A DNA stretch of 64,000 nucleotides, taken from assembly GCA_009746045.1 (NCBI GenBank), contig RPFO01000022.1, positions 3,586,678 to 3,650,677 of the forward strand. The letters are read 5' to 3'. Every line of letters starts with the position of its first letter. Position 1 is the first letter of the stretch. The notes beneath the pieces were generated by a model. That model saw only the letters and a program-made list of their open reading frames with translations, had not been told where the DNA came from and searched no databases. The position numbers were made by a program, and so were the translations under genes. Source of the DNA: Mesostigma viride. Its lineage: Eukaryota > Streptophyta > Mesostigmatophyceae > Mesostigmatales > Mesostigmataceae. Below are positions 1 to 64,000 of the stretch, one piece after another.

Positions 1-3000
1 CATATATATTACTGGTGTCATTGGCCTCACCTGCAGAAAGGTGTTGAGCAGCGTGCGCATGCCCCGTGACGTCTGCAAGACCTTGAACAGGCGGGCGACG
101 CGGAAGATGCGGAAGAAGTCACCGATGTTCTGCACGGTGGTCAGCAGGTCCACAATGGAGCCGATGACCACCACCAGGTCAAAGCGGTTCCAGCGCACCG
201 ACCTGCGGGGTGGATAGGGGGCATAGGCGCCATACATGGGGAATGAAAGATTATTGAGAGACATAGGCAGCAGAAATGAGGGGGACATAGGCAGCATCAT
301 GAGGGACATAGGCAGCATAATAAGAGAGATAGGCATGAATGGTTTCAGTGCTCCTGTTGTGTGTGTGTGTGTGTGTGTGTGTGTGTGTGTGTGTGGTGTG
401 TGTGTGTGTGTGTGGTGTGTGTGGGAGTTATGAGGCTCAAGGGAGGGATAGAGGCAAGGGTTAAACCCTAAACCCTAAACCCTAAACCCTAAACCCTAAA
501 CCCTAAACCCTAAACCCTAAACCCTAAACCCTAAACCCTAAACCCTAAACCCTAAACCCTAAACCCTAAACAGTATAAGAAAAAGGGGGTAGGGAGTGGG
601 ATAGAGGGGGATGGCATGAGAGTGGTAGTGCGAGTGCGAGTGCGGGCGCAAGATTACATCTGATTAGTGCGAGTGCGGGTGCGGGCGCAAGATTACATCT
701 GATTAGTGCGAGTGCGGGTGCGGGCGCAAGATTACATCTGATTAGTGCGAGTGCGGGTGCGGGCGCAAGATTACATCTGATTAGTGCGAGTGCGGGTGCA
801 GGCGCAAGATTACATCTGATTAGTGCGAGTGCGGGTGCAGGCGCAAGATTACATCTGATTAGTGCGAGTGCGGGTGCAGGCGCAAGATTACATCTGATTA
901 GTGCGAGTGCGGGTGCAGGCGCAAGATTACATCTGATTAGTGCGAGTGCGGGTGCAGGCGCAAGATTACATCTGATTAGTGCGAGTGCGGGTGCAGGCGC
1001 AAGATTACATCTGATTAGTGCGAGTGCGGGTGCAGGCGCAAGATTACATCTGATTAGTGCGAGTGCGGGTGCAGGCGCAAGATTACATCTGATTAGTGCG
1101 AGTGCGGGTGCAGGCGCAAGATTACATCTGATTAGTGCGAGTGCGGGTGCAGGCGCAAGATTACATCTGATTAGTGCGAGTGCGGGTGCGGGCGCAAGAT
1201 TACATCTGATTAGTGCGAGTGCGGGTGCAGGCGCAAGATTACATCTGATTAGTGCGAGTGCGGGTGCAGGCGCAAGATTACATCTGATTAGTGCGAGTGC
1301 GGGTGCAGGCGCAAGATTACATCTGATTAGTGCGAGTGCGGGTGCAGGCGCAAGATTACATCTGATTAGTGCGAGTGCGGGTGCAGGCGCAAGATTACAT
1401 CTGATTAGTGCGAGTGCGGGTGCAGGCGCAAGATTACATCTGATTAGTGCGAGTGCGGGTGCAGGCGCAAGATTACATCTGATTAGTGCGAGTGCGGGTG
1501 CAGGCGCAAGATTACATCTGATTAGTGCGAGTGCGGGTGCAGGCGCAAGATTACATCTGATTAGTGCGAGTGCGGGTGCGGGCGCAAGATTACATCTGAT
1601 TAGTGCGAGTGCGGGTGCAGGCGCAAGATTACATCTGATTAATTTCCATCGGGGTACCAAGAGGCTGTCACGTACCGGGACCCCTGAACACCGTCGGCTC
1701 GGTGGTTCATGTGCCAGCAGCCACAACCAGCCGGTCCACGTATCAGTCCCACCTGGTTCTGAATATTTTATGCTTCACCTACCAGTACCCTTGACGACCA
1801 ATTTTCCAAATACCTTGGCGGTGTTAGCATACCGCTAGCTCTACCTCTACCGCAACCTGTACCCCTTAACCCCAAGCTTTGATTGCTTCGCGTACCAGTA
1901 ACCCTTGACTCCAAACGCAAACACTTTCGCCGTCGCCTCGGCGATGAAAAAGGCGGTGAAGAAGATGTTGGCGGTGTCGATGGCGGCGCGCAGCTCGCGC
2001 GGTTGGTCATTGTGGTACGCCAGCATAAACGCCACGTTCACGCAGATGGCGGCCAGCACCATGTTCTCAAACCACTGGCGTGGGTTGGTGGCGGTTTGAT
2101 CGCAGAAAGTAGTGGGTGCCGGTCCGTGGGGTGTGGAGGGAGCAAGGGTGGTGGTGGTGGTGATGAGTGGGAGGTCACGAGCAGTCGGCCGGATGTGAAG
2201 CAGTCAACAAAAATCCACCAACATTAACAGTAATGATGGCAGTGAAAAGACATTGCACCCCTAATACCACTCCTTGGCAGCAATAAACCATGGGGGCAGG
2301 CACACAACCCCTATTGAAACGGCCCGAGAGAAGGGCGCCTGCTACGGCTTCGCAAGGGGGTGGGATTAGGAAAATGTTGGTCATGCTAGTACTTACGGCA
2401 AAACATGGTCTTTCCCTACAGCTTCGCACGGCAACCCCTTTAAAGAAGGGGGTGGGATTAGGAAAATGTTGGTCATGCTAGTACTTACGGCAAAACATGG
2501 TCTTTCCCTACAGCTTCGCACGGCAGCCCCTTTAAAGAAGGGGGTGGGATTAGGAAAATGTTGGTCATGCTAGTACTTACGGCAAAACATGGTCTTTCCC
2601 TACGGCTTCGCACGGCAGCCCCTTTAAAGAAGGGGGTGGGATTAGGAAAATGTTGTGTTGTGTTGCTCGGACACCCACCGGTGTACGTTTAGTAATATAT
2701 ACACAGCCGGTTTAGTAACATGTACAGGTGTACGTGCCTTTTCCACCTACATGTCTAGATGACTCGCGTGGACGCCCATTATCCGTCAGCGTATGTGGGC
2801 ATGTATATAAGAATACATATAGGCGGAATATAGGGTGCTATATATATAGGGAGAATACAGGTCAAATATAGGGCGCAGTCTACGTGATAGTTAGTTAATT
2901 GATTAATTGATCAATTAATTAATGTATGAATCAATAGGGTGCTTGCCCCCACAAACCCCGCCAGGATTACAACGTATGCATGCTGGCTTGTGCATCCTGC

Positions 3001-6000
3001 AGGCTGCCACACAGGATGCACGGGCAGCATCGTGAGAGGGTCGCATATGGTGAGCGATGCCCCCCTGGCACTGGGATCTATGGGGTCGTTCATCTGGTAG
3101 ACAGGTACCAAACGAAATCTATATGGATTCTATATGAATTCTATATGAATTCTATATGGATTCTATATGGATTCTATACGTGGTGGTTCATCTGGTAGAC
3201 AGGTACCAAACGTGAGAGGGTCGCATGGATATCCACGCGGAAGCAGCACACCTAAACATAACCCGGAAACACAACGGCAGAAGCAATACCGGACAATGGA
3301 CGCCGCTGTCCTGGCCAGCGCAGGGACAGGCCGCTAACAGGGCCTTGACACGTGTGCGGCTGACCTGCGTGCCGAATGGCGATAGCACGCGGCGTGTACG
3401 CACCATACCGTGTGCGTGGCAAACGCCAGCAGCAGGACCATGCGACGCAGAGGCAACATACCGCGTGTGTGACAAACGCCCCCAGCCAGTTGCGCAGAGG
3501 GTGCAGGTTGTGGTCGTAGATCCACCGTTTCTTCAGCTTGTGCTGCTTGAGCTGGAACGCGTCCTGTTGTTGACGTCAAATAGACCACAGTTGATTTCAC
3601 ATCCACCACATTAAATACTACTATCACTTTCATCCACCGGCACACACTTGTCAGCTGGTGCTGCTTGAGCTGGTGAATGCGTCCCGTTGGCGGCGTCCAA
3701 AAGACCACAGCTGGTGGCGAGTCCACCACACACAGCTGGCTGTCTCTCTTATAATCCATCAGCGCACCATTATATGAGTACTACAGCAGTATAATAATTA
3801 GTGCTATTAGACGAGTTCATATCATCCACCGCGCAGGAGTGGTTGACACGTCAACCACGGACTGTTGCTATGAAATCCACCACACACGGCGAGGTTGACA
3901 AGTTCCCCCCCAGCGACCAGCGCCCGACATAACCGACGGCTGGCCAGAAAGTACCAATATACTGTGCCCACCAGTGCGGCGGCCAAATGTCCAACGCCAA
4001 TGCCCAACATTCACTATAGTATAGTATACCATGGGGTACCACCACCTCAGAATGTGGCAGCCTCGCAAGGCCACAGTGGCAGAGAAGTGCACACGTGGGC
4101 CAGCCAGACCTAACTCTCACATTCACAGTCAGGTAAACCAGGGAGAATGGCAGCGCCGACAAAAACCACACGTCCCATGAAAAGGATGCCCATCACTAGA
4201 GGGCGGGGAGAGTGGCGTGAGAGCAATGCCATCCATGTCAGTGAGAGCGGTGGACGTCATTCAGGGCAAGCCGCTGATAACTCGAACATTCCACGGTCAG
4301 TTGTGGTACATGGCCAGACATGACATTTAAAGGGACTACCTATTAAGATCGTCCGACATGATAACTGATGGGCCTCCCTATGTATGTGACCCAACAAGGT
4401 AACTGATGAGACTCCCTATATATGTGGTCCGACATCACATCTGGTGGGGCTCCCTGTATGTGTGGCCCGCCATGATAACTGATGAGACTCCCTATTAAGG
4501 TGATGCTGGCGGCGGTGGCGGCGGCGGCGGCGGCGGCGGCGGCGGCGGCGGTGGTGGTGGTGGTTTACAAAGGGATTGAAGATGGTGGGTGCGCAGAAGG
4601 CAACCAGGTTTCTGTGCGGCCTGACCCCCCCCCCCCCCCATCCCCATCCCCTCCTCCTCCTCCTCCTCCTCCTCCTCCTCCTCCTCCTCCTCCTCCTCCT
4701 CCTCCTCCTCCTCCTCCTCCTCCTCCTCCTCCTCCTCCTCCTCCTCCTCCTCCCCCTCCTCCCCCTCCTCCCCTCCTCCCCTCCTCCCCTCCTCCCCCTC
4801 CTCCCCTCCTCCCTCCTCCCCTCCTCCCCCCCTCCTCCCCCTCCTCCCCTCCTCCCCCTCCTCCCCTCCTCCCCCCTCCTCCCCCTCCTCCCCCTCCTCC
4901 CCCTCCTCCCTCCTCCCCTCCTCCCCTCCTCCCCCTCCTCCCCTCCTCCCCCTCCTCCCCCTCCTCCCCCTCCTCCCCTCCTCCCCTCCTCCCCCTCCTC
5001 CCCCTCCCCCCTCCTCCCCCTCCTCCCCCTCCTTCCCCTCCTCCCCTCCTTTTTATGTGTCAACTTGGTGGGTGGGTGAGCTGGCTATGTTCTGAGACAT
5101 ACGTTCTGCCAACTGCCAGCATCATGCATACATGAGCAGAGTGCAAACTTTTCTTGAAAATACACTGCGGCCACGTACCGCCCATCTTCGCTGCTCTGGG
5201 GTTATGAATAGCATCCCCCCGCATTGCTCTTGCGCCTGCCAGGCAGAGCGGCCGCGTCAGGAAAATTGACGTTCAGCCATGTAAACCAAAGATGGGAAGG
5301 AAGTCAGACAGGGCGCAATGCGACGTAATTCTACACCATTCATCCACAAACTCATCCGTGGTTTCACCCCCAAGGGCCTGTAACTGTGATTAGAGCGATG
5401 GAGTAGAATTGATTGAGTAGAAGAGAAGTTCCAGAAAATCACTGGTCCATCCCAAAACCCCACGCGACCACAAGCATGCTCAAACTGCCATGGAGGCTAG
5501 AGTCCTAGCCAGCAAATACCAGGCGTGCTGGTACCCTAACCCCTAAGCGGTTTTCTAAGTATGCTTGCGGGCGTCATCACCCCGCCTGTATCGCCACACA
5601 GTTTGGGCGTACAGTACGGATACCCTATTGTTACCGTGTGCCTCAGCTCTATCCTCATGCCTCCGCTCGCAAGCTTAGGGAGCACGCTCATCAAGTTCCA
5701 TGTCATGAGCCACGAGGCATCTCATGAGCCATGAGGCATGTCATGAGCCATGAGGCATGTCATGAGCCATGAGGTATGTCATGAGCCATGAGGTATGTCA
5801 TGGCAGTTCTATAACGCCCAAGACCATGTGGCGACACGAAGTTGCTGCATTACACGCTGCACAACCGGATTCAGCCAACACCGTCCTCGCTAGCTGAACG
5901 AGGCCTCTACATGGGGCTGCTTGAGAGCCCGGCCTCACCTTCATGTAGTGGTTTATGATGATCCCCACCAGCAGGTTGATCCAGAAGAACGCGCCCATGA

Positions 6001-63992: not shown

Positions 63993-64000
63993 CCCAAACA

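Follow-up and report, generated by a model that had tools for sequence, protein, structure and literature searches.

Copies of exon edges in the adjoining introns of the green alga Mesostigma viride, probably left by local tandem duplication

Introduction

Exon stuttering, in which the edge of an exon is copied together with its splice donor or acceptor into the adjoining intron, has been described on the dot chromosomes of the chicken (Hron et al. 2026, PMC12954441). According to the accessible part of that report, the source of the copies lies at most one base from the exon border in more than 90% of cases, and the exonic part measures 20 to 187 bp with a median of 36. The GC-rich dot microchromosomes carry 190 of the 236 affected introns, which is 3.4% of their introns, and length variation in the population was also shown. 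Here we describe a similar pattern in a 64,000-nucleotide stretch of the genome of Mesostigma viride (hereafter the window; G000:C777:3586678-3650677 in our numbering), a green alga whose assembly comprises 439.9 Mb in 2243 contigs. A preceding reading of the window from its letters alone (the sequence-only reading) had noticed the copies in three genes, designated A, B and C below, and knew of no described system; the bird report supplies one.

The alga and the chicken share the same anatomy, namely a local expansion of intronic repeats into imperfect tandems. In both systems the exon copies are confined to the adjoining intron, the copied stretch comes from the border of the exon and takes in intronic bases (31 + 7, 16 + 16 and 12 + 58 exonic and intronic bases in young algal units), and clusters of imperfect tandem copies lie in introns rich in tandem repeats. 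However, the intronic part of decayed algal copies is hardly seen beyond position +6. The bird concentration on dot chromosomes also has no counterpart in the alga, where the pattern occurs on five of six contigs and the GC (guanine plus cytosine) content is 53.7% in a 264-kb region; in birds it is a correlate and not the mechanism. The algal case further differs in affecting about a third of the donors, in its bias toward donors, in its position in the green-plant lineage, and in that the neutrality of the copies was measured.

Other described systems are more remote. In the accessible text on human segmental duplications, tandem repeats at exon-intron borders likewise alter gene structure, but the cases are recent paralogues with transcript evidence and some novel introns, and no decayed record through ordinary introns is described there (PMC2812944). 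Intron gain by tandem duplication, as outlined in the accounts available, also reuses splice signals through a border-crossing duplication, but it makes a new intron, whereas existing introns lengthen in the alga. Introners are repeats tied to introns and splice sites and, in the accessible part of their description, dispersed mobile copies (PMC9860276), whereas the algal copies of exon edges each belong to a single intron. Among the titles and abstract beginnings listed by searches of one literature library, none reported exon-edge copying in algae or plants, and stuttering terms retrieved the bird paper alone. The accessible parts of PMC5966456, PMC11228838 and PMC10675990 make no mention of exon-edge copying. 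The published genome of M. viride, a basal streptophyte, comprises 442 Mb in 2363 scaffolds and is described, in the part available, as having unusually long introns with a mean of 1142 bp and 30.1% of the intron space repetitive (PMC6947507).

Exon edges recur in their own introns

The copying of exon edges into introns is real and beyond chance. For the gene models, we trained a small gene finder on the window and checked reading frames by hand. We pooled the 26 window introns with 31 introns predicted in 200 kb of flank and 28 introns of four CCT-family genes on other contigs (n = 85). The flank models come from our own simple predictor; some of the 31 are probably not genes, and some contain retroelement-like frames. 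When the 60 bp on the exon side of each junction were compared with the intron, 27 donor and 10 acceptor edges had direct copies in their own intron, and one of each had inverted copies. Edges paired with other introns gave no copy (0/85) in each of three shifts, which also leaves no sign of an introner-type dispersal of exon edges. With a looser complexity filter on the 68 longer introns, the direct copies numbered 25 and 10 (donor and acceptor) and the inverted ones 2 and 1.

Short exonic words gave the same picture, a match being defined as 19 of 24 bases or better. In the window, 24-mers starting less than 24 bp from a junction gave a match in their own intron 98 times out of 1248, with 109 matches observed against 0.19 expected from other introns. 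The rate fell to 11/1220 at 24-48 bp and to 3/8755 at 48 bp or deeper, for which low-complexity exon stretches would yield about 32 matches in other introns. In the flank, with low-complexity k-mers excluded, 103 of 1451 junction-near and 5 of 11904 deep 24-mers matched. Chance similarity is thus ruled out by the mispaired introns and the exon interiors.

At a threshold of E < 0.01 (expectation value), copies were present at 12 donors and 7 acceptors of 26 in the window, and at 10 and 3 of 31 in the flank. The pattern seen by the sequence-only reading therefore holds, although its generality was overstated. The deepest matched exon base per edge ranges from 16 to 58 of 60 (median 32), and many edges have just one detected copy. 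At two of the 12 window donors (30477 and 24816), the exon matches stop short of the junction. With an exonic share of just 12 bp, the array at donor 28326 is not counted among the 12.

All 17 edges cited by the sequence-only reading were examined, and GT or AG is present at every cited splice site. The exonic matches mostly stop at the junction, and the copies continue into the splice site. At donor 58364, for example, GTCATGTTCCGTGTGGCACTCGCCCTGGTCGAGCTGAACGCCAAG followed across the junction by GTGG has an 87% copy ending 147 bp downstream. Copies with at least 16 exonic bases occur at eight of the 11 cited donors (61953, 52554, 42035, 26554, 11536, 10373, 8753 and 3462). The remaining three are 28338, for which reading frame and channel homology favour position 28326; 1896, which is weak (8 exonic bases, E 0.007); and 30477, whose array has only 8 exonic bases in common with the edge, 6 of them identical. 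Among the six cited acceptors, 51631, 56888 and 58573 are clear, 60574 shows short or gapped matches only, and 53435 (the frame favours 53428) and the ladder at 37569 are weaker (E 0.005 to 0.07). Further copies were found at the uncited donors 60425, 58364, 55138 and, more weakly, 38101, and at the uncited acceptors 17532, 6025 and 3563.

Decay of the copies

To follow decay, we took from the 57 window and flank introns the 41 ungapped copies that extend to 3 bases or fewer from the edge, and dropped gapped or farther matches. Three copies at 96% identity or more were excluded, which left 38 (27 donor, 11 acceptor). Phases in the flank genes came from the gene finder, and that of gene B was assumed. 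The mismatches at codon positions 1, 2 and 3 were 52/333, 52/333 and 87/334 (p 0.0001). This excess at position 3 fits copies that drift everywhere and exons that drift at silent sites, and it disfavours coding or alternative exons as the primary interpretation of the copies. The divergence of most copies is 10 to 25%. Among the decayed copies, 20 of 27 at donors retain GT and 7 of 11 at acceptors retain AG, about the rate of the neighbouring bases. Judged from the sequence, most copies look like neutral, mostly non-coding fossils that happen to retain splice signals. The decoy splice sites proposed by the sequence-only reading thus exist as sequence, whereas their use by splicing is not supported.

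Spread across the genome

The pattern also occurs in other genes, namely in flank introns and in CCT-family genes (Pfam Cpn60_TCP1), which were found by a family search and read on C887, C1546, C1568 and C1702. We take the gene on C887 to encode subunit CCT8. Among six contigs examined, C777, C887, C1641, C1546 and C1702 show the pattern; the CCT gene on C1568 gave just a 14-bp match (E 0.018), which was left uncounted. On L038, a donor is followed at 48-bp steps by at least three copies of 94% identity. The pattern is widespread and less dense in the shorter CCT introns.

Contigs C887 and C1641, which may be alleles or recent duplicates, show 98% identity over their first 3.4 kb when gaps are left out, and in both the CCT gene repeats 31 exonic and 7 intronic bases at 40-bp spacing, with two unmatched bases at the join. 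Their introns differ by one 43-bp unit, and a 19-bp intronic unit is present in 2.1 versus 3.1 copies. The contig with one 43-bp unit fewer has there a 14-bp direct repeat spaced by exactly 43 bp, which suggests slippage or end-joining at direct repeats.

Dispersed repeats are present but are not the source of the edge copies: 17 of the 85 introns share some non-simple match of at least 40 bp with another intron (13 pairs).

Repeat content and intron interiors

Non-simple direct repeats cover on average 22% of a window intron, so that introns "filled" with copies, as the sequence-only reading put it, was an overstatement. Non-simple self-similarity involves a mean of 17.7% of intron bases in direct and 2.1% in inverted orientation, and the direct part is distributed along the introns (13 to 24% per tenth). 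In an early k-mer test, self-repeats were found in 21 to 26% of interior k-mers more than 200 bp from a junction and in 15.4% and 8.6% at the exon edges, and the junctions looked ordinary. In the last 48 bp of the 26 window introns, unlike the donor side, only 4 of 502 k-mers recur elsewhere in the intron.

Junctions were compared with intron interiors in 68 introns of at least 600 bp, with 340 pooled interior points. Young copies (92% identity or more) are equally frequent at donor edges (8/68) and in the interior (39/340; 12, 9, 10, 4 and 4 of 68 at the individual downstream points), and thus give no support to targeting of junctions. Old copies were found at 17/68 donor edges versus 17/340 interior points. 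The simplest explanation of this excess, likely but unproven, is that the exon, being under selection, keeps old copies recognisable, whereas two intronic copies that both drift cease to resemble each other. The sequence-only reading had named interior matches as frequent as those at junctions as its own refutation. The young copies go part of the way there. Acceptor edges show no excess at all ages (10/68 vs 65/340), and young acceptor copies are few (3/68 vs 42/340 at interior upstream points), presumably because upstream AG copies close to the 3′ splice site are selected against. Queries centred on the junction found copies at 37 of 68 donors, a count that the splice-site consensus may inflate somewhat.

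Origin of the copies

Our preferred reading is that introns are subject throughout to local tandem duplication and that the constrained exon keeps a readable record of it. We give a probability of roughly 80% to such pervasive local direct duplication with its record preserved at exon edges. The introns would undergo local direct duplication in units of about 30 to 100 bp or more. When a unit spans a border, the extra copies would land in the intron, because the outermost splice site would still define the exon; we infer that this is the copy used by the spliceosome. A duplication wholly within an exon would change the protein and be expected to be removed. The copies would then drift neutrally while the exon stays under selection, so that old events remain readable at the edges and fade in the intron interior. 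The molecular step may be slippage or end-joining at short direct repeats. Acceptor-side events would survive less often, as an upstream copy of the AG would disturb the choice of the 3′ splice site. The proposal of the sequence-only reading, repeated tandem duplication across exon-intron borders, agrees with copies that are direct, local and restricted to their own intron, and with exact young units that join exon and intron.

Several observations weigh against this reading. With copies of all ages taken together, donor edges exceed the pooled interior points (25/68 vs 56/340, p 0.0004); they are not above the nearest interior point (19/68, p 0.36). Acceptors are under-represented relative to donors (10/85 vs 27/85, p 0.003), and the 28 CCT introns yielded five donors and no acceptor at E < 0.01. 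In decayed donor copies, identity is about 0.33 beyond intron position +6, which is below the estimate for simple two-sided neutral drift, and the adjoining intronic flanks align at z > 2 in only 10 of 35 cases. Fast turnover of introns by insertion and deletion may explain the weak similarity beyond +6; a short intronic share in many of the original units is a possible alternative.

Under a rival idea, the exon edge is copied together with its splice site under the direction of splicing signals, of R-loops at donors or of an intermediate linked to splicing. The donor excess over all ages and among old copies, the retention of the exon with little more than the first few intronic bases, and the preponderance of donors would all be in keeping with such targeting. 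However, the excess is missing from the young copies, the exact young unit at 28326 includes 58 intronic bp, and direct self-similarity extends along whole introns; we consider targeting unlikely. Selection could also have kept the copies as alternative exons, recursive-splicing stations or decoys, as the retained GT and AG and the restriction of the donor excess to old copies might suggest. This is very unlikely, because GT retention is no different from 0.82 squared (p 0.54, for GT only), as neutral decay would give, and codon positions 1 and 2 are unprotected, having changed at 15.6%.

Local tandem duplication was also weighed against templated insertion at repaired breaks of the polymerase-theta type. 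The source of some copies is 100 to 900 bp away, with other sequence between, and the two unmatched bases at the join of the 40-bp CCT-gene period would suit an insertion. Templated insertions are expected in both orientations, whereas direct copies were found at 37 edges and inverted ones at 2 (p 3e-9), and multi-copy arrays of fixed period are tandem; this origin is therefore highly improbable. An artefact of assembly or gene models, or chance similarity, is hardly credible. Exact arrays are indeed prone to errors of length, and some of the simple flank models are probably false, but the divergence of most copies, the empty mispaired control in all three shifts, the match of the CCT exons to a conserved family and the presence of the CCT-gene duplication on two contigs all speak against it.

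Significance

The novelty of the finding is an exon-stuttering-like case in the green-plant lineage, very distant from birds. The recurrence of a bird pattern in this lineage, chaperonin genes included, is more suggestive of a general mutational process than of something peculiar to dot chromosomes, and the fossil-record argument favours a background process of duplication. If duplications strike evenly, the rate at junction-centred donors would be near the true density everywhere, and much of the unrecognisable intron DNA would be decayed duplication. On this basis we suggest, tentatively and at somewhat less than even odds, that the algal introns grew mainly by serial local tandem self-duplication, that birds and this green alga arrived there independently, and that it is a general mode of intron growth. 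Intron lengthening without transposons is poorly known. Because an exon edge is a constrained reference copy, duplication events could be counted and dated there though they are unreadable elsewhere in the intron, and exon edges would serve as a fossil record that dates intron growth. Every border-crossing event would also plant a full-strength decoy donor, and such sites would be a natural experiment on how the spliceosome chooses among near-identical donors.

Genes and copies in the window

Coordinates of the three gene models and of the copies at individual edges are collected in Table 1. The protein predicted from gene C has 32 relatives at 23 to 38% identity, the best being a Trebouxia protein at 31%. 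The linker of gene A, used as a query in a protein search, gave no matches.

Table 1. Gene models and exon-edge copies in the window (window coordinates)
Feature	Position	Strand	Remarks
Gene A, modelled	63998 to 49754	-	RabGAP/TBC (Pfam on single exons)
Gene B	37569 to 42035 and beyond	+	
Gene C, modelled	30663 to 31, continues left	-	four-domain voltage-gated cation channel (Pfam, single exons)
Gene A, first modelled exon, at right window edge	61953..63998	-	donor 61953; exon-edge copies end near 61859, 61695, 61613, 61531, 61449, 61237, 61143
Gene A, 82-bp tandem array in first modelled intron	61432..61837	-	units hold exon edge and donor
Gene A, exons 60574-60425 and 58573-58364 with intron between	58364..60574	-	donor copies end near 60185, 59542; acceptor copies start near 59299, 58858
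Gene A, intron, then exon 56888-56276	56276..58363	-	45-bp donor-edge copy ends near 58217 (87%); acceptor-edge copies start near 57324 (24/24 exonic bases) and 56972
Gene A, exon 55673-55138, intron, exon 53428-53330	53330..55673	-	donor-edge copies end near 54786, 54681; weak acceptor copy near 53527
Gene A, exons 52625-52554 and 51631-51500	51500..52625	-	donor ladder near 52470, 52400, 52322; acceptor copies near 51844, 51951
Gene B, donor edge 42035	42008..42502	+	copies end near 42137, 42231, 42502
Gene B, acceptor 37569	37128..38223	+	upstream ladder of short weak copies starting near 37128, 37221, 37326, 37416; donor 38101 has a single weak copy, end near 38223
Gene C, donor 30477	30149..30479	-	33/34-bp array; about 8 exonic bases common (6 identical) plus GTGAGAAG
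Gene C, donor 28326	27333..28337	-	70-bp array, 14 copies; unit of 12 exonic and 58 intronic bases
Gene C, donor 26554	26450..26569	-	32-bp array; unit of 16 exonic and 16 intronic bases
Gene C, exon 11625-11536	11456..11625	-	single donor-edge copy, end near 11456
Gene C, exon 10589-10373	10145..10589	-	donor-edge copies near 10324, 10178, 10145
Gene C, exon 9047-8753	8457..9047	-	donor-edge copies near 8486, 8457
Exon 6025-5939	6025..6180	-	copies of acceptor and exon start, upstream of exon
Gene C, exon 3563-3462	3409..3690	-	upstream acceptor-side copy near 3681 (45 intronic and 31 exonic bases); donor 3462 has a downstream copy near 3409

Simple sequence of the TGCC/CCTT type, about 3.2 kb long (38409-41669), takes up most of the 3.8-kb intron of gene B. 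An intron of gene C contains an interstitial array of 15.7 exact TAAACCC units (462-571), which we take to be the plant-type telomere motif. Gene C also includes an open frame of 1521 codons (12452-17014), mostly of low complexity, with the start of an ion-channel domain at its end; it probably links channel domains II and III.

In the flank, we take the exons of one gene to be VPS45/Sec1-like. Predicted exons on L006 and L015 (277-749 and 90038-90353 of the 264-kb stretch) carry YADDTT motifs, which we regard as reverse-transcriptase-like, and these exons are presumably from retroelements. Two introns of different genes (numbers 36 and 74 of the 85) match each other over at least 800 bp at about 71%, probably through an array-like or dispersed repeat. 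Of the two 98% identical contigs with a CCT-family gene, C1641 (L034, about 3544-6669) has a 3.1-kb insertion relative to the other (L035), with CTCCGT at both flanks and an array of 53-bp units twice inside, which looks like a mobile element in an intron. The rbcL gene is of the green type, its matches at 89 to 92% identity being cluster representatives from land plants and green algae. It occurs in two copies of opposite orientation on C602 (205 kb), with further copies on the small contigs C900 and C996, an arrangement that suggests plastid inverted-repeat isomers or a palindromic assembly.

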